Assembly: GCA_030141605.1 (NCBI GenBank)
Contig: JAQGDQ010000017.1
Location: 1,295,188-1,359,187, forward strand
DNA length: 64,000 nt
DNA from: Tubiluchus corallicola
Lineage: Eukaryota; Priapulida; Priapulimorpha; Priapulimorphida; Tubiluchidae
Direction of reading: 5' to 3'
The translations under genes and the position numbers were made by a program. The notes beneath the pieces were generated by a model. It did no database searches. It was not told where the DNA came from and saw only the letters and a list, made by a program, of their open reading frames with translations. Each line of letters opens with the position of its first letter. Position 1 is the stretch's first letter. Positions 6,001 through 62,669 of this stretch are shown here, piece by piece.

Positions 6001-8658
6001 AAAATCGCAATGTGTAAATTGAATATTACACGTTATACCCGGTGGTGAATGATTTTTGCTAAAGGGTGCAAAAACAGAGAGTTATAGCACAGGGCAATTT
6101 AAAGGAAGACCGGAGCATTGTTTAGACTCAATCTCATTTTAATTTACTGTCCAAAATATACTATTTCTTGCCTATAGAACTTAGCAATTGTTTCTTATAT
6201 TTGAATAATTAGCTTAAAACGTAATTACCGGTAACCAAACACAGCTATTGCCTACATCAGAAACTAACCACAGTTTGTGCAATGGCAGGCATCTTCCCTT
6301 GCATGTCAAGCACATTTGCATAAGTGTTACTGTTTAAACGCGGGATGTCTCGAAAAGAGGTTCTTCATCACATGACGTCAGAAACACAGCATAATCATGG
6401 TTATCGTGGTACCGCCTTCTATTTGTTGGCTATGCGAATGTGACAAAAAGGATCCGTTGGTAATCTTACTAGATTCACTGAGCCGCGAGTAGCTTTGAAA
6501 GCTTAACAAAATTTGAGTATCCGAGATAATTATTATTTAATCTAAGCTTTGATTTAAAAAAAGCTATTGTAGTTTTCAATATTTTAGAGCATTCTTTATT
6601 CTAAACCAATGTTTACACAATCATTCGGTTTTCCATTAAAGACACTGAAGACCTAAGCCTACTGAATTTTCAATATTTTAGATTTTCATATATTTTTAAT
6701 AATATATCAAAGCACTACTTGCGTGGGTACCCAATCTTTATGTCGTCAAGCACTTTTCGTGGGGTCTTGGGCTAGTCCAAAAATGCTGTTTTCACGAAAA
6801 GTATCTAAGTAAGTCTTGTTTCTTCAGTCTCTCATTACTTCATTTTGTTCTGGAAAGTAAAACTGGGTTTCTTTGCTCTAAATGCAGTATATCAGTACTT
6901 GATTTTCCGGAAAAACGAAAATGCAAGTTGTTGCATGCTGTACACTTGCGTACAGTGCACACCATTCAAAAGAGTGTCGCTCGGCATTTTACCTTGAATA
7001 CCTATTGCTGTTGCATTACTGGTCGCTGAGAAACAGGTGCAACAATCACATGAATGAATTAATGAAACAATCTCTTGTTGTTCAATGATTTGTTGAATAG
7101 TAATTGCTCCAATGATGCCCTCTAGATTGAAGGCTGTGCAAGGACATGGTATGTTCTCCATTATTTGAGCAATGCTTTTAATATAGTGAATTCTTCTGTT
7201 CCGTTACTCAATGTTTTTGTTTCCCTAGCAAAAGTTTATATACATGCTGTAGCCTTGTATTACGTGTGAGTAAGAACCTTTAAAAAATGCTATTTCTACT
7301 TATAGTGCAACGAGTTTCTGTATTGGTGGAATCATATTTTTGTTTTTCTGTATTTTATAATTTTAGTTTCAAAATTCTAAATTAAAATATGCAATTACTA
7401 GTTAAAGCAATATTGTGCAAAAAGAAGGAAAGGTAAAAAGTCTTGTCTGAGTCAGGATTTGAACCAGGGTCCTTAGATTATATGTCAAATCTTCAATTCA
7501 TTTTTTGGCTCATTCCAGAATACATCGTACGTTGGGTTTGGTTTCAAAATTCATATTTTACAAAAATGTTTGATTTCAAAACATCATCATTCTTGCTTTC
7601 ATCATCATTTTCATCATTCTTGCTTTCACTTATTACTGCAGAACTTACAGCCGTTTGTAACTAATCACTTAATGGCGTGTTGCTAATCACTTAATCACGT
7701 AACAAAGTGGCCTACCATAAGTCCGCTCTCTCGTGATTTTAGTCGAGTTATACCAATGGCATAACACAGTATTTTTAATGCAGATTATTACATAAATGTA
7801 TTGTTAGCTAAAGTGACAATTTACATGTGTAATAGGATTAAAACATCTTTTGTTTCAAGCTTTGAAAAATCTTGAAAAATAACATTAGTGTTGTTAAGTA
7901 TGTTCATTAGACGTTTTTAAGTGCATTTGCAAGCAACAAGTTTGTTAATAACTACACGTGTTACCAGTGTGGATGCTTTTAGACTGTGTTGGTATTACGT
8001 TATGTGATGTATGTGAAATAAACTGATTCAACTTGTTTACGTCATAAAACCACTTACTAATCCTACTTACCAAACTAAAAAAATTGTTTCATTTCAATAC
8101 AGACAGTTTGTCTTTGTTTTAGGTACTCTTTCCGTTATGGGAGTAATTTACGGGATCCTTGCCAGTCTTTTCGTGTCTCTAAATGCCATATTTACGAAAA
8201 AAGTTTTACCATTCGTCGATGAGAATATCTGGCGGCTGATCTTGTACAATAATTTCAATGCCTTCTGGATGTTCTTACCCCTCATGATTCTCGCCGGCGA
8301 GCTCAACGGGTTTCTCAGCTTTCCGAGATTATTCGACTACACTTTCTGGTCATTTATGATTCTCAGCGGCGCATTTGGCTTCACAATCGGCTATGTTGGG
8401 TCATTACAAGTCCAAGTGACATCGCCGCTGACGCACAACATCAGTGGGACAGCTAAGGCATGTGCGCAGACTATTCTAGCTTGTGTGTACTTCCAAGAGA
8501 CAAAATCGGTGCTTTGGTGGTTGAGCAACGCGGTTGTGTTAACAGGCTCTCTAGCGTACACGCACGTGCGACGCCAGGAGATGAAGGAAAGACACATAGA
8601 GGAAGCGAAGTCCTTATTAGAGAATGACCAAGACAGCACAGAAAAAAGTGCTGTTTAG
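1..8658 (+). CDS. SLC35C1: GDP-fucose transporter, 3' part (5' exon outside window)
   Basis: Golgi multi-pass antiporter of the nucleotide-sugar transporter family. It imports GDP-fucose into the Golgi lumen for fucosylation. Exons read: 1-3 (last codon AAG of an upstream exon, donor gtatgt), 1552-1692, 3238-3354, 5864-5972 and 8123-8658. All junctions are GT-AG and the frame is unbroken, giving about 301 aa against roughly 364 in human, so about 60 N-terminal residues are missing. Family landmarks are [73 protein letters not shown] and [11 protein letters not shown]. Several hydrophobic membrane segments are visible, followed by a charged cytoplasmic tail (RRQEMKERH). Introns 2 to 4 carry a LINE fragment, a hAT-like MITE and two TTAA MITEs. 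Intron 1 (4-1551) shows nothing recognisable. Identity is sure; use of base 3 as the exon end is inferred from the donor and frame. Confidence 0.93.
1750..2395 (+). pseudogene. LINE reverse transcriptase C-terminal fragment
   Basis: Decayed non-LTR retrotransposon piece inside SLC35C1 intron 2. The frame from about 1786 reads [17 protein letters not shown], then [17 protein letters not shown] and YNSETWGLT, followed by [14 protein letters not shown]. This is the typical region after the polymerase domain of RTE- or CR1-like elements (YLG...I..R...A...LLYGSETW...FHR.CLR). After a stop at 2161 a second frame continues ([16 protein letters not shown]), so there is a frameshift. The catalytic domain is absent. 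A related fragment lies at 16500-16880. Confidence 0.7.
4577..4915. mobile_element. hAT-like MITE, copy 1
   Basis: Non-coding dispersed repeat in SLC35C1 intron 3. It shares long stretches with 47135-47490, including TGAGCACATTTTTCAAAA, GAAATGAGCATGCATTTA and TTATGTGCTTGCTC. The ends, ATTGGCTAATAGGGG and GGCTATGCCCCTG, are diverged relatives of CAGTGGCGTAGCTA, a terminus common in hAT elements. Family assignment is inferred from the ends only. Confidence 0.5.
5155..5700. mobile_element. TTAA-type MITE, copy A
   Basis: About 546 bp, starting TTAAAGGAAAAC and ending in the inverse form TTTTCCTTTAA. It is homologous over its whole length to 6099-6639 and to the reverse complement of 28747-29271, with shared internal words such as TATTTGAATAATTAGCTT and TAATTATTATTTAATCTAAG. 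It has no coding capacity. Termini at TTAA suggest piggyBac-like mobilisation (inference). It lies in SLC35C1 intron 3, just upstream of exon 5864-5972. Confidence 0.65.
6099..6639. mobile_element. TTAA-type MITE, copy B
   Basis: Second copy, in SLC35C1 intron 4. It begins TTAAAGGAAGACCGGAGC and ends GGTTTTCCATTAA. It is closest to the copy at 28747-29271, with which it shares about 23 bp of flank beyond the terminal TTAA (AGACACTGAAG..CTAAGCC). These two copies therefore come from a common, longer source or sit in the same older repeat. Confidence 0.65.
7435..7495 (-). repeat. tRNA-derived SINE remnant (B box)
   Basis: On the minus strand an exact pol III B box, GGTTCAAATCC, is followed by CTGACTCAGACAAGAC and a run of five T, resembling a tRNA T arm, 3' end and terminator. 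No convincing 5' half or anticodon arm is visible, so this is a SINE remnant and not a tRNA gene. Confidence 0.35.
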
Positions 8659-9005: not shown

Positions 9006-10724
9006 TACAGTAGGTGTCATTTAGTTAATAGAATCAGTCGATTAATTGACTCAAAAACACCTGGTACAGACTGCTTCTATTAAAATATGTGTAAAACCTG
9101 TCAATGATAGGCTCAAACAACTCTTGAAGTTTTGAAGTCCTGAATAATATACTTCTAAAAAGTCATTAACGACATACTAGAAGGTTTTGGGGTGCACATA
9201 GTTAGTATACACTCTGCAACTTGTTAACTGGTGATGGTATTGGAAGTTATGAGAAGAGGTGAAACAAGCAAAACAAACATGGCGGGTGCGGGCTAAAAAC
9301 ACAGTTAGATTTACAGACAGGTTAGGTGGGATGGCACCCTCAAGGTAGAAATAGCAGAGGGTGCAAGTGCTCGGAAGTGATTTCTCTGATATCCAGTGGA
9401 AGTTTGTTCCACGAATGTATTGCTCTGGGGTAGAAGGAGTATAAATAAATATTGACTCTTGCTGATGACTGAACAAATTTGTTGTTATCTTTGAGAGATG
9501 GGGTGATGTAAGTTGGTAAATTTATACCTATCCTGTGATGCACTATATCATGAAAGATGTTTAGTATCGTTTGACGACGTCTAATTTCTAGTGTTTCCCA
9601 GCCGAGTTCCGAGATCATCCTAGATACTTCATTTCTGGTATATTCATTTTGTACAAATCGTGCTGCATTTTGCTGGACTTGCTCGATGCATTTTGCATTT
9701 ATCAATGCTAAAGTCCATAAGCCAGTTTTCCCCCCATAATTGTAGCTGTGAGAGATCATTTTGTAGGATATGGTGATCGTGATTACTCCATATAGGTCTG
9801 TACAGAATCGAGTCATCAGCAAATAGTCGGATGTTAGATGATATATTGTCACTGATGTCATTTATATAGAGGAGGAATAATTGACTCCTCATAATTGACT
9901 CAACATGTGTGCTTTTAGTGGTTTAATAAGACACTTTTGTGGGACCAGTAAGCTTTTATGTCATCTTAGTTTGTTTTTGTGCTTTAATAAGTAGAAACAA
10001 TCATGTTGTGTACCGTTTTGTTTATAAGCAGGTACATTCATTATTTGCTAATATGCTACCCTAGCGGTTTTGCACCTCACCCATACACTGCAATTAACAT
10101 CATCCCCAAAGAATTTGTGGACATTTAATCACGTGTCTAACAGTTTGCTTTTCAAGCTTTTGCTGCCTTTCAAAGAACGTTTAATCTGTTAGCAGCTGAT
10201 GTTATACCAGGGATGCAGGTACAGTAAAATAAAGTGTTGCAAAGTTGACGGTAGATTAACGGTGAAAACTTGAATGCTTGCATGACAGCTGTGTTGTTTA
10301 ATGAATGGTTAGTGAAATGGGATGCAAGCTTAAAGTGAAACATGCATCTAAGTGTTTGTGCATCATACAGCAACAGGTTTTCTACATTTTTATCATTATG
10401 AAAACCTTGTGACACATTTTTGCAAAAAAAATGACGCAGCCGACTTTGAACAAATTTTTGTAAATAAACAGACTTGTGTGATTTAGAAAAGTAAACTATT
10501 TTATTAATTCACTTTATAAGTTAATATATTTAAACAGCTGCATAGGAATTTAGGTATTACTTCATTTCTAAAATTCATTACCTAAGCCTTTGGAGTGCAT
10601 ACTAAGCTGATGATTCATATTTATATACTAGTAAAACTACATCTGTCAGTTAATGGATTCTTTCGGTTAATTGGATCAAAACACTTAAGTCCCAAAGTGT
10701 GTCTATTAAGCGGCGCCTGCTGTA
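9006..10724. mobile_element. TA-flanked TIR element, copy 1, with nested LINE
   Basis: The left end TACAGTAGGTG and the right end GGCGCCTGCTGTA are inverted relatives. Read in reverse, the right part matches 23272-24042 closely, for example TCTAAATCACACAAGTCTG and the CAATTAACCGA region. The ends and TA target suggest a pogo/Tc1-mariner MITE. The extra length relative to the other copy is largely a LINE fragment inserted near 9100-9893. Confidence 0.6.
9180..9893 (-). pseudogene. Truncated LINE ORF2 (reverse transcriptase)
   Basis: Minus-strand remnant read in two frames. Upstream (to 9892) it reads LFLLYINDISDNISSNIR and then LFADDSILYR, which is the polymerase FADD catalytic motif. Downstream (9340-9700) it reads CIEQVQQNAARFV, then ISELGWETLEIRRRQ and FYPRAIHSWNKLP, the usual end of jockey/CR1-type ORF2. 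The sequence between these blocks is missing and the frame shifts, so it is dead. It sits inside the TA-flanked element. Confidence 0.8.
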
Positions 10725-12011
10725 TTAGAACCTGTTTTTCAACAAAATCCTTTCAAATAATGAATTAATTTCTAGGGTGATAGTGTTTTGGTCTGTGCCC
10801 GATAAAAAAGCTCTGCATTTATGCTCAGAGTCAAGTACAGCTAAGGGAACAATTCTTTTTTATTTTAATTTCATATTTTTTTATCTCACTGCTTTCTATT
10901 TCTAACATTAGTTTACACTGGCTACTTATTAGTGCAAAATATAGTAATTAAGTATGCATGAACACATGTATGAATTTGTTTGTACTATAACAATGGCCTA
11001 ATAGTTATATAGGAGCTATATTGTTTTAAGACAGATAAGATGTAACAAAAGGAACTACTGTTAAAGAAAATTGTTGAACTTTATTATACATAATTGTTAG
11101 TTGCAATAACAAACTGAGGTTTATATTGCATGGTTTTTATTGATGCAAGTCTTTCATAAAATGCTTTTTCACTTGTCTTGTGAGATAAGTATTTTTTGTT
11201 TACTTAAGTCACTTCAAAACACAGAGTAATAAAAACACTGGTTCTTTTAAGCTTTGAACTGGTGTACATCAGATAGCTTGGAGTACTGACACACTTTCAA
11301 CTGTGCTCAATCAACTTGACAATTCAAATCATATAGAAACTTCTGACTCAATGTCACCGCTTTTGTTGTAATAACATTAGTGAGACAATTGTTCTATTTG
11401 TTGTACAAGAATTAGAGAAGTAGCCTGGATGATTCTACGGGTAACATTTGATCTCCGGTATTTTGGCTGCAAATGATAAATAACACGACTGGATCGTCGT
11501 ATTAACAATTTCAAAATTTGAACAAAATGCACAAATAGTAACAATTTTGTTGCAAAATATTGTGTTTTGTGCCACCTGCTATTGAACTATTAATCTTCTG
11601 CTTGTGCCAAGTACTGTATCATGAAAGACGTCAAGCATTTATAGGCTAGAAAAGAATTCCCACTTCCACAAAATCTCCAAGTTTCTTATTGTTCTTGGAC
11701 TTATTTGTTATGTATAACTTTTAAAATAAGATTTTGTTGTATTCTTTTTTAAGGAGAATTTTGTACTTCGTACAATCGATGTGTTTATTCAAATGTTTTG
11801 TGTACTGATATATAAACATGTTGTGTGGCTGGTTATGCACTGAGTGCATGTGTGTTTTTTCCAATAAATTTAAAGATAGATGCAAGTGCAGTGTATTGAG
11901 TTATCCTCTGGTTGTATTCGTTTCTGCTAAGTCCCATCTTTATTTGTTCATCTGGAACAAGCTATGATAACTAACAATACATATTCAAAAATTAAAAAAA
12001 CCATGTTCAAA

Positions 12012-12303
12012 TTTTATAGTTAAAGCACCACAACTTTATTAAAAAGTTAAATTTACATAGTTAAAAAATCGTAAAATGTTTCGACAGAGCTACTGCTGTC
12101 ATCATCAGTGGTAAATTTTTACAAACATACTAGTTTATATAGGCAGAGCCTACAGCATAGAACATTATGTATTTTATATAGGCTCTGCCGTCTACATAAA
12201 CTGGTTGTATGTTTGTAAAAATATACCACTGATGATGACAGCAGTAGCTTTGTCGAAGTGTAAATTAAAAGTTTTAATAAAGTTGTGGCGTTTTAACTAT
12301 AAA
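12012..12303. mobile_element. Foldback element with hammerhead-like motifs
   Basis: Two arms, about 12012-12156 and 12180-12303, are imperfect inverted repeats of each other. Both contain a CTGATGATGACAGCAGTAGC-type core followed by TGTCGAA, and both end with a TTTTAATAAAGTTGTGG-like tail (AATAAA). A single related arm lies at 56570-56710. The combination of CTGATGA and GAAAC resembles ribozyme-bearing Penelope-like or retrozyme repeats (inference). The left-arm TTTATT at 12035-12040 would also read AATAAA for the minus-strand ACTR8 transcript. Confidence 0.6.
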
Positions 12304-12479
12304 TGTTTTTAAGTGCCTGTAATAAAAAATATTCAAAATTGCTGTTCTATACAATAATATTCATTATGCATCCATGAATAATACAGCAATAAAAGTAGCA
12401 TTTACAAGTAATAATTACTGTTTAATTAAATGTACAATTACAATTTACAAGTACTGAACACGAATTTTAGTCAAATGTT

Positions 12480-13832
12480 AATGGTGTTCGTTCCCACATT
12501 GTTAATCTCTTGTGACTGAGTGTCGTGCCCACAACAGTGGTATGAATAGAGCATATTCTCACAATGCGATGACAATGGCATTGTTGCCTCATAAATAGAC
12601 CTCATCCCCATATAATAGTGACTCCCACATGACTGAAACTCATTCTCATAACAGCATTATTGCCAAATGGAGGTCATTTCCATAACATTATGATAACAGC
12701 ATTAGTGCCACATGACTGGATCTCAAGCCCACACAACAGTGGGTACTCTCACATAAAACGAGCTCATTCCCATAACATTATGATAACAGCATTAGTGCCA
12801 CATGACTGGATCTCAAGCCCACACAACAGTGGGTACTCTCACATAAAACGAGCTCATTCCCATAACACTATGATAACAGCATTAGTGCCACATGACTGGA
12901 CCTCATGCCCACACAACAATTGGTACTCTCACATAAAACGAGCTCATTCACATAACAATATGATAACAGCATTAGTGACATATGACTGGACCTCATGCCC
13001 ACACAACAGTTGGTACTCTCACATAAAACGAGCTCATTCACATAACAATATGATAACAGCATTAGTGACATATGACTGGACCTCATGCCCACACAACAAT
13101 TGGTACTCTCACATAAAACGAGCTCATTCACATAACAATATGATAACAGCATTAGTGCCATATGACTGGACCTCATGCCCACACAACAGTTGGTACTCTC
13201 ACATAAAACGAGCTCATTCACATAACAATATGATAACAGCATTAGTGACACATGACAGGACCTCATACCCAGACAACAGTTGGTACTCTCACATAAAACG
13301 AGCTCATTCACATAACAATATGATAACAGCATTAGTGACACATGACTGGACCTCATGCCCACACAACAGTTGGTACTCTCAAATAAATGGAGCTCATTCC
13401 CATAACACTATGATAACAGTGTTATTGCCAAATGGAGCTCATACCCATAACACTATGATAACAGCATTAGTGCCATATGACTGGACCTCATGCCCACACA
13501 ACAGTTGGTACTCTCACATAAAACGAGCTCATTCACATAACAATATGATAACAGCATTAGTGCCACATGACAGGACCTCAAGCCCACACAACAGTGGGTA
13601 CTCTCACATAAAACGAGCTCATTCCCATAACACTTTGATAACAGCATTATTGCTACATGGTTGGACCTCATCCCCACAACTGGAGTACTCCCACATGAAT
13701 ACAGCTCATTCCTACAATGTTGTTCCTAAATTAATGGAGATCATTTCCACATAAGTGTTATTCCACGTAAATGGAGCTTGTTTCCACAACACCATTACAC
13801 CCACGTAAATGGAGCTCTTTCTCGCAACAGTG
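12480..13832 (-). repeat. Minisatellite derived from ACTR8 terminal coding sequence
   Basis: Tandem array of roughly 1.35 kb directly downstream of the ACTR8 stop. Near the gene the unit is about 38 bp. In the core (about 12711-13660) it is a regular 90-bp higher-order unit built from two diverged halves. For example, CATGACTGGA recurs at 12711, 12801 and 12891. Because 90 is a multiple of three, long spurious ORFs stay open on both strands. On the minus strand the motif CTGTTG..GAA.GAGCTCCATTTA is recognisably the ACTR8 terminus. Confidence 0.9.
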
Positions 13833-16800
13833 TTATTCCCATGTGAATGGAGCACGTTCCCGCAACAGTCGGTATCCAAACGTCTTCCACTCTCGCTGTC
13901 GAATCCACAACTCCTGCGCAGTATCCAAAAGAGACATCACGGAAGCCCCTTTCCATGCGGTTGTTCTCGGATCCGATTTCTACAAAAAAAGACCCACTTA
14001 TTACGACTTTAAACAGAATCATTTTTGTCAATTCAATCTCTCATTTTCATTGGTACCATGTTGTACTGAATTCAATGAATTAACATATTGTTACTGAGGC
14101 AGCTGTGTCGGGTCAGGTGTAGGGCTCTCTACACGCCCTGCTTCCACGTCAGCACCGACTCACCCCTTTCTTGTATGTCCAGACGTCTTGTTTGGGCCTA
14201 CACGTGGTGTGAGAAGCCAACTGACCTGCAATGCCAGTATAAAAGCGTGTAGAGGTCACGACAGTCTGGATTTCTGACACAGGTGCTCCTCGGGTGTAGT
14301 GCTGTTACTGCGTTAGTTAGTTACTTTTTTGTGCACGTGTATTTTGGTTCCTTATTTTTATTAGTGCTGTTAATAAACTCCGTACAGTGTAGTTTTTTTG
14401 TGTATTTTGTTTTATGCGAGTTATATGACATGCTATAACAGGTATAAGGTACTAGTTTACAGACATTAATTTAGCTAATTAACATAACATTTGTAATTAA
14501 CATTAACATTTGTAATTAAGTATCGGTTACACAACGATTATATAATGGAACTTCATGATGCGCAATATCAAGACCGCCATGCCATCTTGGAGTTCGACCC
14601 CCTGGGTCGAATTCAGTCCAATATTATTAATTTATTCAGTAATGTACACTTATGGTACATTTACTTTATGCTCCTTGATGCAAAATATATATTATCACAC
14701 AACTAGAATCAATACTTGTTTACAGTTTCAAGACCTCAAAATTGACAAATTGGAACCAATTACTACTGCTCTATTAAATTACGACAAATGCACCTACTGA
14801 TCTGATGTTCTTACATAGAGACATTAACATCATTCACATGAAGCTGGCAACACAATTTGATAATTTGATAAATATAATATAAGGCTACTAACATTTGATC
14901 AGATTTTGCAAGTAAACTTGACCCGAACAACCTACCAAAATTCACTTGCCAATTGTGCATTGAGATAAACTTGACTAAACAAAAATTACGCTGCATTGCA
15001 CATGCAAGCAACATTACCCTTGGTTCCGTAATGACTTCGACTGGCTCCGACTTCAAATGTGGGGGCGCTGTAATGCTGACTCTGTGACGCAGCCAGAACT
15101 CGGCACCGGTGAACATCATCCCACCTCCAACCATGAGTATCGTGTTCACCATCTTTCGTTTCACCTCAATGTCAGGATCTGAAACAAAATTTGTAGATTT
15201 GTTATAATTCTTGTAGATTAAAGTTATAGTTCTAGTAAATTAAATGTAGGGGATATGACAGCACACAAGTCTAGCATTTAGTCAAAAGTAAATTTTCTAA
15301 AAAAATGGTAAAACCAAGATAAAGTTAGAAACCAAAATTAAAAAATTACAAAAAGAATTACTAATTCGTAACTAATTTTTTTATTTTTCATTTAGTTTTT
15401 AGTTTAGCAGTTCAGTGTCTCTTAGCACACTAGTTTTTAATGTTTCTGAATTGGGTGAACAAAGGAAGGTATTTGGGTAGGACCTGAATTTTGTTGGTTC
15501 GGATTTATTAGTAAACAATTTCTAGCAAAAAAGATTAGGGTCGATGATAATAAATATACGTTGGTCAAGAAAGAAGGCATTAGATAAGCATAGGGAGAAG
15601 AAGAATGGTCCAACGCTAACACGCCGCCCGAGCTGCGTCAAGATAGGTGATTACCAGAGGTGACGATAATGCCCATTTCTCGACTGCCATCCTTCCTCCA
15701 GTACATATCCATGTAATTAATTAAGGCTGAGTAGGTCTAGGAAGGAGTCCCATAAAGTCCTATTTCAGTGGTAAATGGTTAAAAAAACCCAACGTGAGTG
15801 AGGTTTGAACACTGGACTTCTGGATCGGCAGCCAACAGGCATAATCACTCAGCCACCGTGTGCAAGAATAAGGTAAAATTGTACACTAGAATATGTTGCA
15901 CCTATAGCGTAAAGTGAATCGTTCCTTAGGCTTAGTTTTAACCAGGAGGCATTCATCAGAATCATCATGTCCAACTCACCACATCTCTCGATGCTTCGAA
16001 ATATCGCCTGATCTATCGGAAGCACCTGTACAGCTTCCTCAGCTATCCGGTCATTCTCAGTTGCCTGTTCCTCGCTCGCTTCCTTGCCTAAATTTGATGC
16101 TTCATCATCCCTTGCGATGTCGTCATCAAGCTGTGACTGGGCAATTTGCGCATCGTCTGCTTGCTGTTCCGTTTCTTGTTTACCTGGATCAGTGGTAGGA
16201 TCCTTGACCCGCCTCTAGATAGGAAAAGAAATGTGATTAGTCTTTCCTAAACATGGGAATAAAAACAGGCTGAATTCAAACCACTGACCCTTTGCTTACA
16301 AGGTGAATGCCTTCACAGAGGCCAAGTAGTCTAGTGGTCATGTGGTCATTACATTCGCCTTGTAAACAAAACTCCTTGTTTCAAATCCAGGCTGTTTCAT
16401 GACTCGGTCACACTTTTTTCTTTTGGAGAAGCTCGATTTCAATGCAATTTTGATTCTGATTACAACTTTTTATAAATGACATTGAAATCAAAATAGAAAC
16501 AAAATTAAAAGAAAAGGATCTGGTATTAAATAAAGATAAAACAGAAGACTATCAGATAAAAATGAATGCATGGAGAAAATGCAAATACTAGACAGTGCTC
16601 TAACAACAGATGAAGATATATCAAGAAGAAAAACCTTAGCACTAGCAACATATTCCAAAGTAACAAAATTTTTTGAAAGTAAGAGGATCAGTCTAGAAAT
16701 AAAATTAAGAATCTTTCCTGCACTTGTGTAAACTGTGTTTCTCTACAACTCCGAATTGTGGACAATCAAAGCACATCACAATCAGAAATCGGTGCATTCC

Positions 16801-33100: not shown

Positions 33101-36100
33101 CAGTCGGAGGTTCGACGAATTCAAGCCGAAAACGAAGCTCTGCGCAAAAACTTTACAGGTTCATTTTATGTCTTTGCTGGTTCAGGTTTTTATACTGTGA
33201 ATATAAAAATATGCATTGTGTCCTGGTTTGAGTTTAGACTAAATTAATTGTCAGTTGTTCTCACCAATTTATCACAAATGAATATCTCTTTCCCTAGTTT
33301 AGCATTGCTAGCATAGCTGTTAACAAAAAAAACCTTTAACGGACATCAAGAAAATATAATTTTTGTTAGCTATACTTTCGTTTTCCCTTGTGTTAGCTGC
33401 ACTGAGGTCTTTATTATTAAAATGTATGTGATGAAGCCAGTGAGGGTGGAATTGCAATTAAATTGAAATGTCATTTCTGTTAACTTGTACTTCCTTCTGC
33501 CAATACCTGTGAATTCGCAAACAACTTCGTAAATAGTGTGGTGGCATAACGCATGTGAACTGCAATGACTTTTACCTCTAAGGCCTTTAATGTAAAGTTT
33601 TGAGTCTTAAAAGTCAGATTATCTCTGTCGTGTAATGGTTAGCATAGTTGGCTAGAAACCTGGAGTTCTTGGGTTCCACTTCTAACAGAGGTGTAAAACT
33701 TATCAGACATTCTAATTTAGTATTGCTTTTGCACATTTATCTGATCAGGAGCAAAATGAAAATTGGGTTTACTTGATCGTAAATTACTTGTTTCATTCAT
33801 TTTAAGCAGAAAATGTGAAGAATGTGCATTTTTTTTACAGAAGCAGAAGAAAAACTGAAGAGTAGTATTTGTGACTTACAGGAAAAAGTTAGGTAAGTAG
33901 CCAGTTTCATATACTCTTCTGTTCTTCATTTTTACATTAAATGATGATAATAAACATCAGCAAAATCAGAATTTTCTCTCAGATTAATTAGTGGCCCTGA
34001 AAAAACTCTTCTGGAGTGGAAAAAAAGCTAATTTTTGTGCAGTTCAGCTCACTGAGAGAAACCAGAGTCTATCACTTATTGACAATGTCTACTTAATGTA
34101 GGTGATTGGGGCAGGACAGGAATCTAGTTCGATGTCAATAATATTTTTGATGTTGAATGATGGCCAGTTTTTCACAGCCAAAGTTATTGGAGTAAATTTC
34201 TGTAAAATTTGATTTTTATTTGATGACAGAGTTCTCAGTGAGATTAACTGTAAGCTGGAGTCAAAATGCTCTCAGCTACAAAGCGAGAGCGGGGAGGATG
34301 ACAACTTGGCGAAAGAGACTTCCGCTGAAGAACTTGAGGCCAGCGAGAACACAGGTGAATAATCATCTTATTCATTTGTTGCTGTTGCTTGATTTAGTTA
34401 GGGAATCTAAAGCTGTCTTTGATGGTGTTTCATGTGCATGTAACAATATTCAACTAACATTCATGGCTTACAAGCTTTGTTGGTTTATGTGGATATAACA
34501 ATATTCAACTAACATTCATGGCTTACAAGCTTTGTTGTTTCATGTGCATGTAACAATATTCAACTAACCTTCATGGCTTACAAGATTTGTTGGTTTATGT
34601 GGATGTAACAATATTCAACTAACATTCATGGCTTACAAGCTTTGTTGTTTCATGTGCATGTAACAATATTCAACTAACATTTATGGCTTACAAGCTTTGT
34701 TGTTTCATGTGGATGTAACAATATTCAACTAACATTTATGGCTTACAAGCTTTGTTGTTTCATGTGAATGTAACAATATTCAACTAACATTCATGGCTTA
34801 CAAGCTTTGTTGTTTCACGTGGATGTAACAATATTCAACTAACATTTACGGCTTACAAGCTTTGTTGTTTTATGTGCATGTAACAATATTCAACTAACAT
34901 TCATGGCTTACAAGCTTTGTTGTTTCATGTGCATGTAACAATATTCAACTAACAATGCTTACAAGCTTTGTTGGTTTATGTGGATGTAACAATATTCAAC
35001 TAACATTCATGGCTTACAAGCTTTGTTGTTTCATGTGCATGTAACAATATTCAACTAACATTTATGGCTTACAAGCTTTGTTGTTTCATGTGGATGTAAC
35101 AATATTCAACTAACATTTATGGCTTACAAGCTTTGTTGTTTCATGTGAATGTAACAATATTCAACTAACATTCATGGCTTACAAGCTTTGTTGTTTCACG
35201 TGGATGTAACAATATTCAACTAACATTTACGGCTTACAAGCTTTGTTGTTTTATGTGCATGTAACAATATTCAACTAACATTCATGGCTTACAAGCTTTG
35301 TTGTTTCATGTGCATGTAACAATATTCAACTAACAATGCTTACAAGCTTTGTTGTGTCATGTGGATGTAACAATATTCAACTAACCTTCATAGCTTATAA
35401 GCTTTGTTGTTTCATGTGCATGTAACAATATTCAACTAACATTCATGGCTTACAAGCTTTGTTGTTTCATGTGCATGTAATAGTATTCAACTAACATTTA
35501 CGGCTTACAAGCTTTGTTGGTTTATGTGGATGTAACAATATTCAACTAACATTCATGGCTTACAAGCTTTGTTGTTTCATGTGCATGTAACAATATTCAA
35601 CTAACATGGCTTACAAGCTTTGTTGTTTCATGTGAATGTAACAATATTCAACTAACATTTATGGCTTACAAGCTTTGGTGTTTCATGTGCATGTAACAAT
35701 ATTCAACTAACCTTCATGGCTTACAAGCTTAGTTGTTTCATGTGGATGTAACAATATTCAACTAACATTCATGGCTTACAAGCTTTGTTGTTTCATGTGC
35801 ATGTAACAATATTCAACTAACATTTATGGCTTACAAGCTTTGTTGTTTCATGTGCATGTAACAATATTCAGCTAGCATTCATGGCTTACAAACTTTGTTG
35901 TTTCATGTGGATGTAACAATATTCAACTAACATTCATGGCTTACAAGCTTTGTTGTTTCATGTGGATGTAACAATATTCAACTAACATTTATGGCTTACA
36001 AACTTTGTTGTTTCATGTGAATGTAACAATATTCAACTAATGTTCGTGGCTTACAAGCTTGACTATACTATCTTCTAAAAACTGAGACAAACTAGCTGCT

Positions 36101-42100: not shown

Positions 42101-45100
42101 AGAGTATTAGGGGAGTTTGTCCTTGGTAATGAGCCAGGTTCTGGTCTAGCCACCACTAGCAGAGTTCTCTACCAGAAGGTGAAAATTGTAAAAATGTATG
42201 TAGTTGAAGTAGTGAAATATCTGAATCTATGCATGTAGTTGAAGTGGTGAAATATCCGAATCTATGTATGTAGTTGAAGTGGTGAAATATCCGAATCTAT
42301 GTATGTAGTTAAGGGGTGAAATATCCGAATCTATGGTGAAATATCCGAATCTATAATTTCATGTTAGAATCGATATTAAATTGAAGAAAATTGAATCGTA
42401 TTCGAACGTTTGATGCAGAAACCTAGCCACTGGTATTCACATTTAGTAAATCCTGCCTTTGAATGCTGGTTCTTGGCTTGCAGTATGGTAAAGCGTAAAA
42501 CAAGATTTCGTGTGGTGAAATAACAAGTACAGTACAGTAAATCCTCACTGAACGAGGCTAATGCATTCCAGCAAAATGCAACGTTAAGCGAAATGTTGCT
42601 AAACGAAGTCAAGACTTCCATAGAAAGGAACGTAAAAGAACTGAGATACGTTCCAGAGACAAAAATCAATGCTGCTTAAATCATATAAATTAAAGGTTTT
42701 ACTCATGTTTCTACTGATTAATTTCTTTCTACTTGCTTGAAACCACCTATATATCTCACCTAGACAGTGATTAAACAGTAAACACTGCAGCAGAGTCAAA
42801 ACCAACCCCTGGTCGACCTTGGGAATTTTATCTAGTCTGGTTACTATAACAACAGGTTCATGCAAAATTCAATGCTCCTAGTACTCGCTTGACACAAATG
42901 GCTAGCATTTAGTGATCAGTCGGGAAGCAAAAACGTATGTACTTGTATAATAATTGCACTGTTTACATTACTTGTGCACTTTTTAAATATAATAAGGCAA
43001 TATATACTGTTGTAGTGCATCAAATTAGGTAATAAACTGGTGATAAAACAAAAATTGGTGGCTTCAAACAAAGTAAAATTTGTCGTTAAAATGAAACAGT
43101 GCGTTGTTAAGTGAAAAAAGGTGTCAAATGTTCAGCATCATTAAAGCGAAACATCACTAAACGGTGAGTCGTTAAGCGAGGACTTGCTGTATATCGAAAT
43201 TCACAGGCTTGGTTTGCAATTTCAGGGGCCATTCGTGTAGAGTTTTTTGCCCATGTACCATTCTTACCAAATTTAAATTTGATTGACCTTTATTAATTTG
43301 AATAGCTAATAAATCAGCTAATTGTGATTCAACAGGAATTAGAGAAAGAAAAGAGCAGCTTGAATGAAAAACTTGAAGAAGTGGAAGAGGAGAGAGATGG
43401 ACTGAATAAGATGTATGCAGAACTAAATAAGGTAAAAGCTAATGATTTTATATTACCTATTATTGGTGTGATTCACATCAATGCATTGTTGGATAATTTA
43501 TCAAAAAATGTTTTATCAATATTGTAGCATCCTTCATGACAATTATTCACTAAACTATACATTCTTCATGCAATGCTGAGTTCCGTTGTCTAATTGTAAT
43601 TGTAAAGCATTTTAAGTAACCATTTTTCTTCAGTAGGTATATTTTATCAATAATTTGCATCTTGTGGACATTGCGCCAATATCAAATGTGGAACAAAAAT
43701 TGTATGTACCAAACCATATTAAAAAGTAAGACTTATATTCATACTTGTAATTTAAAATAAGCAGACTTCTGGAGCAGTGCTGCTTTTACAAACTGAAACA
43801 AAAACATGGCAAATCTTACCATATCCATTGCACTCAGTAATTTCCATCGGTCATTTTCTAACGTGACGTGGGAATCTGTAATTGTTCATGAATTTTGCAG
43901 GTAGCGGAGAAACGTAAGGCCCTTCTTGACGATCTTGCAATTAGACTCCAACAAACAAGCGATGAACATGCGGAAATGATGAGTAAAACGAAACGTGAAC
44001 ATGAAGAACAAATCAACACTCTTCAAGCTAGCCTAACATCCGAACGAGTAATAACTTCGTCATATATGTAGACTTTGTCTATTTGTCATTATATACTCGA
44101 CATTTTAAGTGTTGCGTAATTATTTCTTGCATAATTTTTCTGCATTGCAAATATTTAGCACTTAGAAGCAAATTGTTATCGAAGATAATCAGTGGTTGTT
44201 TATATTAATTTATTGTTTAACAACTACTTAAGCCTAATCTTGGTTATAATACTTTACAACAGACATTTTACAAGTATCAACTATAAAACAGGATTTCTGG
44301 TATTCTATCAGAAATCGAACGCTCTGCATAAAGACTGCAAATTTCAGTTATTTCTGCCCTATAAATGTGATAAAATGCTTTAAAAAGAGTCAACAATTGT
44401 ACTTTTCCAGAAAACGTAGTGTTCAAAATGTCTAATTTTCGTCATGTCAGGCAGTGTGTAAGGTACGAAATTGCTTACATGCTTTTTCAGTTTCCACACT
44501 GAACTGTTGCATCCAGCATTGCCTTTACTACATTGTTCCTTGCCAAGAACAACAGTTTATATGTGGGGTAAAAACTGCCAAATATTGTGGCACATGTTAG
44601 TGATATGTTTCATTACTTTAATGTCGTAGGTAAAAACGTCCGAGCTTAATAAAAGCAAGGAAAAGCTTGAGGAAGCACAAGCACTGGTTCGTTCCCTGGA
44701 AAGCTCAAAAAGCTGGCTCGAGCGCCGCCTGGAGGAGGAGGAAGCAACTAACATTCAGCAGCGTGAAGAAGCAAGTATATCCGCACAACAGGCTGAGCAT
44801 AAGCACGTGGAGGCTATTGCCAGACTGACTTTAGAACATGAAATGACGTTACAGGTGAGTTAAACCTGTTTAAAGCAGCACAGTAATAGTTAAAAAACAC
44901 TTTTTTGACATTTTTGAATACATTGTGTGATATTTTGGACAAGGCGATTTTCCCATTGACAATAATATAAGAGCAAAATGGCAAAGTACTAAAATTTAAA
45001 AAATGCAAAAATTCATATTAACTAATGTGTCCACATTTTAAGCTACATTACGGGTAAAGTGCTTTCTCAAAAATATATAATGTTCATAGATTTATCATTT

Positions 45101-48100
45101 AAGTGTCGCGCATGTATGCAGGACAATGGCATTCCACACTTACTGGTATAACACCCGTGTCCTTGGATATGTAAACAAAGCTAGTGTAATCAGCTGTTTT
45201 GCGTGCATGCGCTGGATGAAATGACAAAAATGTTACATGTAGATATGATCAGCTTTGTTTATCCTGCTTGATATGAAATGTGATTTCTTTTTCATAAACA
45301 TTTATATTTTGAACTGTGTTGTAAAAGAATTGTTTATAAATTTCTTGGTAAAACTCATAGCGGCACCTAACTAATCTCACACTATCAAGCTAAATTTCTA
45401 GCTTAATAAATGTCATGTTGTAAAAACATGTTGTTAAATTTGTAGCTTAATAAATATCATGTTGTGAAAACATGTTGTTAAATTTCTAGCTTAATAAATA
45501 TCATGTTGTGAAAACATGTTGTTAAATTTCTAGCTTAATAAATATCATGTTGTAACAACATGTTGGTAAATTTCTAGCTTAATAAATGTCATTTTGTAAA
45601 AACATGTTGGTAAATTTCTAGCTTAATAAATGTCATGTTGTAAAAACATGTTGTTAAATTTGTAGCTTAATAAATATCATGTTGTGAAAACATGTTGTTA
45701 AATTTCTAGCTTAATAAATATCATGTTGTAAAAACATGTTGGTAAATTTCTAGCTTAATAAATATCATGTTGTAAAAACATGTTGGTAAATTTCTAGCTT
45801 AATAAATATCATGTTGTAAAAACATGTTGTTGAATTTCTAGCTTAATAAATGTCATGTTGTAAAAACATGTTGGTAAATTTCTAGCTTAATAAATATCAT
45901 GTTGTAAAAACATATTGATAAATTTCTAGCTTAATAAATATCATGTTGTAAAAACATGTTGATAAATTTCTACCTTAATAAATATCATGTTGTAAAAACA
46001 TGTTGAAAAATATTGTACAATCTAAAAAGTATCAAGACTTGTTTATGTCATAAAAAATTTTATTTAGTTTCTCTGAACATTTAGTTTTGAGATTTCACTT
46101 TTCTTCTCAAAAAGTTGTTAACTTAAGTGAAGAAATTTGAGTCTGTAGATTCGTGTACTCTCTGCTTTGTAACAAAATCTTTTGACTTAAATTTTAGGAC
46201 TTGAGTCAGAGAATTGAAAAACAACAAGGAGACATTGATGAACAAAAGAAAACTATTATAGGTTTAAAACAGCAGATAAAAGATGGGCTAGAAGAGCGGA
46301 AAATACATGAGCGTAAAGGTGCTCAAATGGTAAGCACGTTCTATTGTTTAGGTGTTTTCAGTGTTACAGTTAGAGGTGTGAAGCTCGTCACATATTATTG
46401 TACGTTCTTTAAGCCTGCCATATGTTTTTCAAATGAAAAAATTATTGATGTTCGCTGCTAACATAGATTATTGTTGTCTTTGTTCGTATAAGTATAATTA
46501 TCAGATGAAATAATTTTAAAATAATAATGCCTCATTGGATGCAAAAGGCACATCAAGCATTATATGTATACAGCACAACAATTTAAAAAAAACAAATATT
46601 TTTAGTTTACAGTAATCAAATAGTGTTATTTGTCGCACACGACTTTGAATATGTTAAATGGCATTTATAATACTCTAATGTCCAGGCCTGATTGTCTTAG
46701 CTGGTTTGTAGCACAGCCTAGTATAAGTCCTCTAGTGTGACATTCTAGATAAAGCACATTTGCAAGAGAAGTATAGCTTACTGAACTCGTCTAGAGACAG
46801 AGTCACTTTTATTAATTTTTCTAAAGGCACTTCAATCTTGTAGTGGAACTTTGGAACTAATTGTTGTTTTGTGAAGTACTCAGAAGTAGTAAAGTAAGTG
46901 CTGAATAGTTGATTGGTTCAAACAGTAATTGCAGAAAATCTTGTTTAATGTGAGTGTTTAACATTTCAGGTAAAGGATTTAAAAAGACAACTGCACGGTG
47001 AGAGAAAACGGGCCGAAAAACTACAAGAGAAACTACAAGAATTCCTAAGTGACAGTCAGCATAACAGAGGATGTAAGTAGTATGCTTGGACCTAAAAAAT
47101 ATTGTTTGGTAACCTGACTAAGTTCAATCAAATGCAGTGGCGTAGCTAATAAGGGAGGAATGGGAGCAACCGCCACCCCTGAGCACATTTTTCAAAATTG
47201 ACGCCTTTTCAACAAACTGCCTTATTACTTTATTTGACCAACGTGCCTCCCGTGTTTCTGAAATGAGCATGCATTTATGCAATTCATTTGTCAAGGTTGA
47301 CTGACTGAACAAGGGATTAAATTGCCCCCAAATGTAATTATTATAATATATTCTTGTCACACAATTGTCTAGTAGTAGGCCTTGCATACAAGTCTCAGTA
47401 TCTTTACGTTGTATTATGACGGTGTTGTATCACGTCACCTTTAATTATGTGCTTGCTCTGCTTATTTTACTCCCTGGCTACACCAAACCCTGATCAAATA
47501 AACAGAGATAATTTCAGTCTAAGAGTCTGTGCTACTTCTCAATGAAAAGTCAAAACGTGTCGCACAGCATTAGCGTGCTGATTATACTTTCTGTAGTACA
47601 GTAGTACTAGCTAGCATACACATTGTTCACTATGATTTAAAGAAAATAAATAAAAAAGTAAGAATCCTGCCTACCGACCCGTTTGATTTTTTGAACATTA
47701 CCCTAACCAAACATATTTTTTGCCCTTAGTAGTATTATTAGTCAGTCTTTGTGCCACTTTTGTGCCAAAGAAGTAAGAACACAGCCATTCTACTTCTTTA
47801 TGCTTTGACAAGATAAGACGTTTATGCTTTAGTAAATTATCTACAAGCAGCTGAGAAAAAAATCTAAGAAATTGCTGCTGTCCATGTCAGCGCATTTGCT
47901 TTTGTTATATGCTGCTCTTAGGTTACTGAGTATTTTAGATTTCGGTTTTAGGGACTGGTATTTCTGTTATATTTTCCGTCATGTGAAATGCATACTCTGA
48001 TTATTCAAAAGTAAAGCTGGTTTTTAAAACTATGTGACTTTTTGGCAGAACCAATGAAATTTTCAGCTAAATTGACCAAACTGTATTCAAAGTGCTCCGA

Positions 48101-53357: not shown

Positions 53358-53720
53358 CCACTCATGTACTGGATCAATTTATACATGTAGTGGATCAGTT
53401 TGATACATGTAGTTGTTCCGTTGATACAAGTAGTGGATCAGTTTAATACATATAGTGGTTCCGTTGATACATGTAGTGGATCAGTTTGATACATGTAGTG
53501 GATCAGTTTGATACATGTAGTGGATCAATTTAATATATGTAGTGGATCAGTTTGACACACGTAGTGAATCCATTGATACATGTAATGGATCTGACTGATA
53601 AATGTAGTGGATTAGCTGATACATGTAGTATATCAGTTTGGTACATGCAATGGATTAGTTTGGTATATATACTATCACGTGTGATGGATGAGTTGAATAT
53701 GTGTGTAATGGATCACCTGT
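53358..53720 (+). repeat. Degenerate 22-23 bp tandem repeat
   Basis: About 16 diverged units of TGATACATGTAGTGGATCAG plus TT. ACATGT is a palindrome in each unit. Confidence 0.85.
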
Positions 53721-62470: not shown

Positions 62471-62669
62471 CAGCAGACTTTACTAGACATCCGAGGCTTA
62501 CCCACGGGTATGGCCGGTTCGCAGACTTTACTAGACACCCGAGGCTTTCCCACGGGTATGGCCGGTTCGCAGACTTTACTAGACACCCGAGGCTTTCCCA
62601 CGGGTATGGCAGGTTCGCAGACTTTACTAGACACCCGAGGCTTACCCACGGGTATGGCAGGTTCGCAAC
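62471..62669 (+). repeat. 48-bp tandem repeat, 4 copies
   Basis: Unit of 48 bp: GCAGACTTTACTAGACACCC, GAGGCTTTCCCACGGGTATG, GCCGGTTC, with very little divergence. As 48 is a multiple of three, several frames stay open through it (ADFTRHPRL.HGYGRF). This is a property of the repeat and not evidence of a protein. Confidence 0.95.

Follow-up and report, generated by a model that had tools for sequence, protein, structure and literature searches.

The 64-kb window, which is the whole stretch of DNA analysed here, contains the last coding exon of ACTR8 on its minus strand and, directly past the stop codon, a tandem array of copies of the final 38 bp of that exon. The exon translates as SDPRTTAWKGASVMSLLDTAQELWIRQREWKTFGYRLLRERAPFTWE-stop, giving 47 residues with LLRERAPFTWE as the C-terminus. 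In a PDB sequence match it aligned to human Arp8 (4fo0) up to the final residue of the chain (E 1e-15), so that an earlier note on this DNA was correct in placing LLRERAPFTWE-stop on the conserved ARP8 tail, and conservation of the tail extends to human Arp8 residue 593. Joined pieces of further open frames in the window also matched 4fo0 (5.7e-55). Pfam gave weaker results, with Actin_micro at 5e-7 (above the cut-off) and Actin at 2.5e-5 (below the cut-off) for the tail exon, and no match at E up to 0.1 for any of the four open frames containing internal ACTR8 exons. The name ACTR8 is based on the PDB sequence matches. Searching the 343.5-Mb assembly with the tail exon returned a single full-strength match, the ACTR8 locus itself. 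The other three of the four genome matches were weak (34, 27 and 28% identity, E 0.011 to 0.50), which removed an ACTR8 paralogue as the source of the array; we take these three to resemble other actins. The features of the locus are as follows.

13833 to 13979, minus strand: ACTR8 last coding exon (translation and PDB match to human Arp8; sole full match in the genome), with the stop codon TAA at 13835-13833
13832 to 13869, minus strand: copy 1, the coding 38-bp segment, taken as the donor-lineage copy (copy alignment)
13794 to 13831, minus strand: copy 2, reading LLRERAPFTWV-stop, 30/38 identical to copy 1 (copy alignment)
13685 to 13793, minus strand: copies 3-5, plain near-edge 38-bp monomers with 29, 26 and 26 of 38 positions identical (copy alignment)
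12656 to 13683, minus strand: core array of approximately 90-bp higher-order units (TRF and copy alignment; TRF places the limits of the 90-bp period at 12670 and 13712)
12466 to 12655, minus strand: the five monomers of the far edge, of which two have doubtful scores (copy alignment)
12421 to 12426, minus strand: ATTAAA, the first canonical poly(A) signal past the stop (motif scan)

Glocal alignment of the terminal 38-mer identified 32 noncoding copies spanning 13831 to 12466, an array of approximately 1.37-1.4 kb. The earlier claim that the terminal segment repeats directly after the stop therefore holds, now with every copy aligned to the ACTR8 terminus in this genome. TRF reported a period of 38 at 13733-13869 and a period of 90 in two stretches, one at 12670-13434 (8.5 copies, 95% matches, 0% indels) and the other, with greater divergence, at 13435-13712 (3.1 copies, 86% matches, 2% indels). 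The earlier description of a 1.3-kb array of 90-bp units was right about the units but not about their extent, as the period of 90 covers only about 1.04 kb of the 1.37 kb, with plain or diverged 38-bp copies on both sides. Each 90-bp unit consists of a monomer of about 40 bp, a truncated monomer of about 12 bp and a 38-bp monomer, and copy 6 (13683) forms the start of the first, diverged unit. The eight core units carry 1-7 differences each from their consensus, and their monomers are of two alternating types, 24-28/38 identical to the gene. Growing divergence away from the stop, as described in the earlier note, is seen in the first five copies, with copy 6 down to 24 of 38, but not beyond them: at the far edge, which is eroded, the copy at 12538 is near the gene again (29/39 identical), and the last two monomers retain a CpG at column 13 that most copies have lost. 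Overall the array is a homogenised core flanked by aged edges.

As a null for the copy scores we used 60 dinucleotide shuffles, the best of which scored 30.5 and the mean 21.5. The two copies adjoining the stop scored 48 and 43. Eleven of the 32 copies exceeded the best shuffle and a further four equalled it; two scored less than the average shuffle and are uncertain as copies, the monomer being short, and this counts against the origin proposed below. Similarity to the array begins sharply at 13869. We scored ten 38-mers of the exon against the array: those with starts at 13909-13979, five in all, reached 12.5-21.5, compared to 48 for the one starting at 13869.

The array was found at one locus. 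A 1500-base DNA query against the whole genome returned the self-match alone, and a two-unit query returned seven matches, all inside the array. A degenerate 31-base pattern, searched genome-wide with up to three mismatches, occurred at four sites, again all in the array, with none for the reversed-pattern control. Because the genome DNA search omits very common words, these results are strong evidence for the absence of the array elsewhere, but no proof. The earlier note had named the same array at unrelated loci as the observation that would count against its reading; we looked for such loci in this genome and found none. A dispersed or satellite origin was rejected on the same DNA and pattern searches. 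With head-to-tail units in the range of roughly 10-100 bp, a short total length and, as far as a search omitting very common words can tell, one or few loci, the array is a minisatellite. At about 1.4 kb and one locus found it lacks the long arrays or many loci of satellite DNA, and the genome searches did not show the unit dispersed as in transposon-derived sequence. The block-homogenised multi-monomer unit with divergent monomers inside it also makes this a higher-order repeat, in the sense given for alpha satellite in PMC5615363.

The ATTAAA at 12421 to 12426 begins 40 bp beyond the array, and neither AATAAA nor ATTAAA occurs between the ACTR8 stop and 12426. For this reason the array probably occupies the ACTR8 3′ UTR, and would be transcribed within it. 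RNA folding of three array segments was in no case better than shuffles (z 0.26, -0.02 and 0.05), and a structured 3′-UTR RNA was set aside on this result. Just 3′ of the array, at 12000-12320, lies an inverted-repeat element with at least 114 genome matches (the best 40 of 1169 first-look candidates were scored), which resembles a MITE or foldback element; its minus strand carries a separate ATTAAA and AATAAA. Further along, an exon of a transporter-like gene (8017-8658, plus strand) is arranged tail-to-tail with ACTR8; its Pfam match to TPT (E 7e-6) is below the cut-off, and we assume that it resembles a GDP-fucose transporter. Between this gene and ACTR8, the open frames at 9340-9922 (minus strand) are presumably those of a decayed reverse transcriptase.

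Minisatellites are common in this genome. Counting arrays with a period of 10 or more and a TRF score of 150 or more, we observed seven in four of twelve sampled 10-kb pieces, which are no random sample, and six in the window when the two ACTR8 TRF rows are counted as one. The other window arrays lie at 34426-36060, 42194-42335, 45391-46005 and 53363-53673, with units of 55, 35, 44 and about 22 bp, respectively. At 62473-62667 a 48-bp unit is present in four copies that are 97% alike, with several open frames on each strand; this repeat could lie inside coding or transposon-derived sequence. A blastn-short test for seeding of the other window arrays by nearby sequence gave no match outside any of seven arrays, but it was too insensitive to be informative, as it also missed the ACTR8 case, where the coding copy adjoins the array.

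The columns of the alignment contain information on which sequence came first. The consensus of the 32 copies differs from the gene at six of 38 columns. Three of these are C-to-T, at columns 7 and 13, both CpG in the gene, and at column 26, which would be a CpG if the seed had G at column 27, as 21 of the 32 copies do. The remaining three, columns 15, 27 and 33, are synonymous third positions (CGT/CGA, ACA/ACG and GAA/GAG). The gene CpGs at columns 7 and 13 read TpG in 29/32 and 27/32 copies, respectively; of the two CG readings left at column 7, one is spurious and comes from the alignment of an insertion-bearing copy. A consensus built from the ten edge copies, a set that includes copy 6, is closer still: it differs from the gene at four columns, two of which are CpG-to-TpG decays (7 and 13) and two synonymous changes at third codon positions (15 and 27), and has a 5:5 C/T tie at column 26. 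These four differences persisted when copy 6, the two copies of lowest score or copy 2 were removed from the set, and the removals introduced nothing else but ties at synonymous third positions or T at column 26. In the array the observed/expected CpG ratio is 0.28, as against 1.18 for the last exon and 0.64 for the window. The array thus preserves a coding sequence that differs from the present one by synonymous changes.

Taken from the other side, the present coding copy differs from the inferred seed at two synonymous sites only and does not resemble an array member that is free to change, although both changes were synonymous in 9% of simulations, which is weak evidence alone. Because the CpG decay runs in one direction, from gene-like to array-like, and because the protein tail is conserved, these comparisons support the gene as donor and the array as product. 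The earlier note had reached the same direction from conservation of the tail, which the 4fo0 alignment upholds, and the CpG-to-TpG polarity together with the copy consensus now supports it independently.

We considered whether a repeat already present beside ACTR8, a satellite or part of a transposon, might have overwritten the last codons or resemble them by chance. The abundance of minisatellites in the sampled pieces and the multi-copy element directly 3′ of the array would be in keeping with such a history. However, the codons that match the array are those of the conserved ARP8 tail, no further array copy was found in the genome by DNA and pattern searches, and overwriting would have needed TpG-to-CpG changes that restored conserved arginines; we regard this origin as extremely improbable. 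An even smaller chance, close to nil, attaches to the array encoding a repetitive plus-strand protein. A frame of 373 aa (12633-13754, plus strand) is open across the array, antisense to ACTR8, and weak Pfam scores summed over the repeats reach 1.2e-8 for MAGI_u1 (above the cut-off), 1.3e-4 for TCAD7 and 0.054 for Microp_apicomplexa_14, sums in which no stretch passes alone. Yet long open frames are expected here because 90 is divisible by 3, and a random 90-mer of matching composition leaves a given frame open in 16% of cases and at least one of the six in 66%. Against their consensus the eight core units show three synonymous to 26 nonsynonymous differences in the plus-strand frame, no sign of constraint, and thus no frame held by selection across units as in a coding repeat protein. 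On the 90-bp period expectation and Pfam, the open frames on both strands over the array were dismissed as genes.

A different question is posed by copy 2, which has accumulated five changes relative to the inferred seed in its 12 codons and yet, alone among the 32 copies, retains all ten residues of LLRERAPFTW. By inspection, the first ten codons of the ACTR8 frame are interrupted by an early stop, gapped or altered in a residue in 30 of the 32 copies. The intact peptide is unlike the prediction of pure neutrality and counts against the gene-to-array origin: neutral simulations kept the ten residues in 11 of 3000 runs when started from the inferred seed (P about 0.004) and in 2 of 3000 when started from the present gene and given seven changes (about 0.0007), in a model that presumes CpG hypermutability and the inferred seed and for a copy chosen post hoc among the edge copies. 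A shifted frame also stays open along the full length of the last exon and on into copy 2. It is conceivable that copy 2 was selected as a coding sequence, serving as an alternative or back-up terminus, but we consider this very unlikely, and give slightly less credence to the more general view that the out-of-frame tail copies are not mere debris and that copy 2, with its own stop, served as such an end of ACTR8. Three of its five changes are synonymous and the other two both fall in the eleventh codon, altering residue 11 (E to V). As the period of 38 is 2 modulo 3, copies 1, 2 and 3 lie in three different frames. Functional use is unlikely because the shifted frame would wreck the conserved rest of the exon, which the product would lose, and because only about half of the peptide survives in copy 3. 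Given a model weighted towards CpG change and a copy selected after inspection, we treat copy 2 as a curiosity that offers weak evidence for later coding use.

The explanation that we favour, and hold to be very probable, is a local tandem duplication across the stop, followed by multiplication, homogenisation of a 90-bp unit and CpG decay. The last 38 bp of the ACTR8 coding end, stop included, would have been duplicated into the start of the 3′ UTR. The extra copies would have been free of coding constraint because translation still ended at the first stop, and may have multiplied by slippage and/or unequal exchange during replication or recombination. Neighbouring monomers, one of them truncated, would then have formed the 90-bp unit, which spread and homogenised the middle while the edges aged, and methylation-type CpG decay would have marked the noncoding copies.

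No new mechanism is needed for this; the array is a clean example of a known process and mechanistically ordinary. Arrays that grew from duplicated sequence, and higher-order units within them, are known from PMC5615363 and from titles cited in PMC3389668. What seems uncommon is that a still-functional, deeply conserved coding end is the founder. In the literature covered by our search, outside which most subscription journals fell, we recognised no ACTR8-derived array or minisatellite seeded by a coding terminus. To our knowledge most minisatellite origins are untraceable, the founder having been noncoding and gone. At ACTR8 protein conservation has held the founder in place, which makes it possible to read the seed, the direction in which it changed and the succession of events, and the noncoding copies record earlier synonymous states of the last codons of the gene. 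The array is thus well suited as a calibration case for the birth of arrays and the formation of higher-order units.

The minisatellite 3′ of apoB, one of the VNTRs of 3′ UTRs or 3′ flanks, likewise lies just downstream of a coding end, but it is an AT-rich repeat that is not known to derive from a coding tail, unlike the ACTR8 array, which derives from the coding tail and is known here from one assembly. In alpha satellite, aged monomers lie at the flanks; the ACTR8 array similarly has older flanking monomers and adjacent monomers amplified and homogenised together, although at about 1.4 kb and one locus it is no centromeric satellite. The closest parallel is with minisatellites that arose when unique sequence was duplicated in tandem, as reportedly described by Haber and Louis in 1998 and by Taylor and Breden in 2000. 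Like these, the ACTR8 array has a single locus, 38- to 90-bp units and a local unique source; unlike these, its founder can be identified, as a conserved coding terminus still intact as the first unit.
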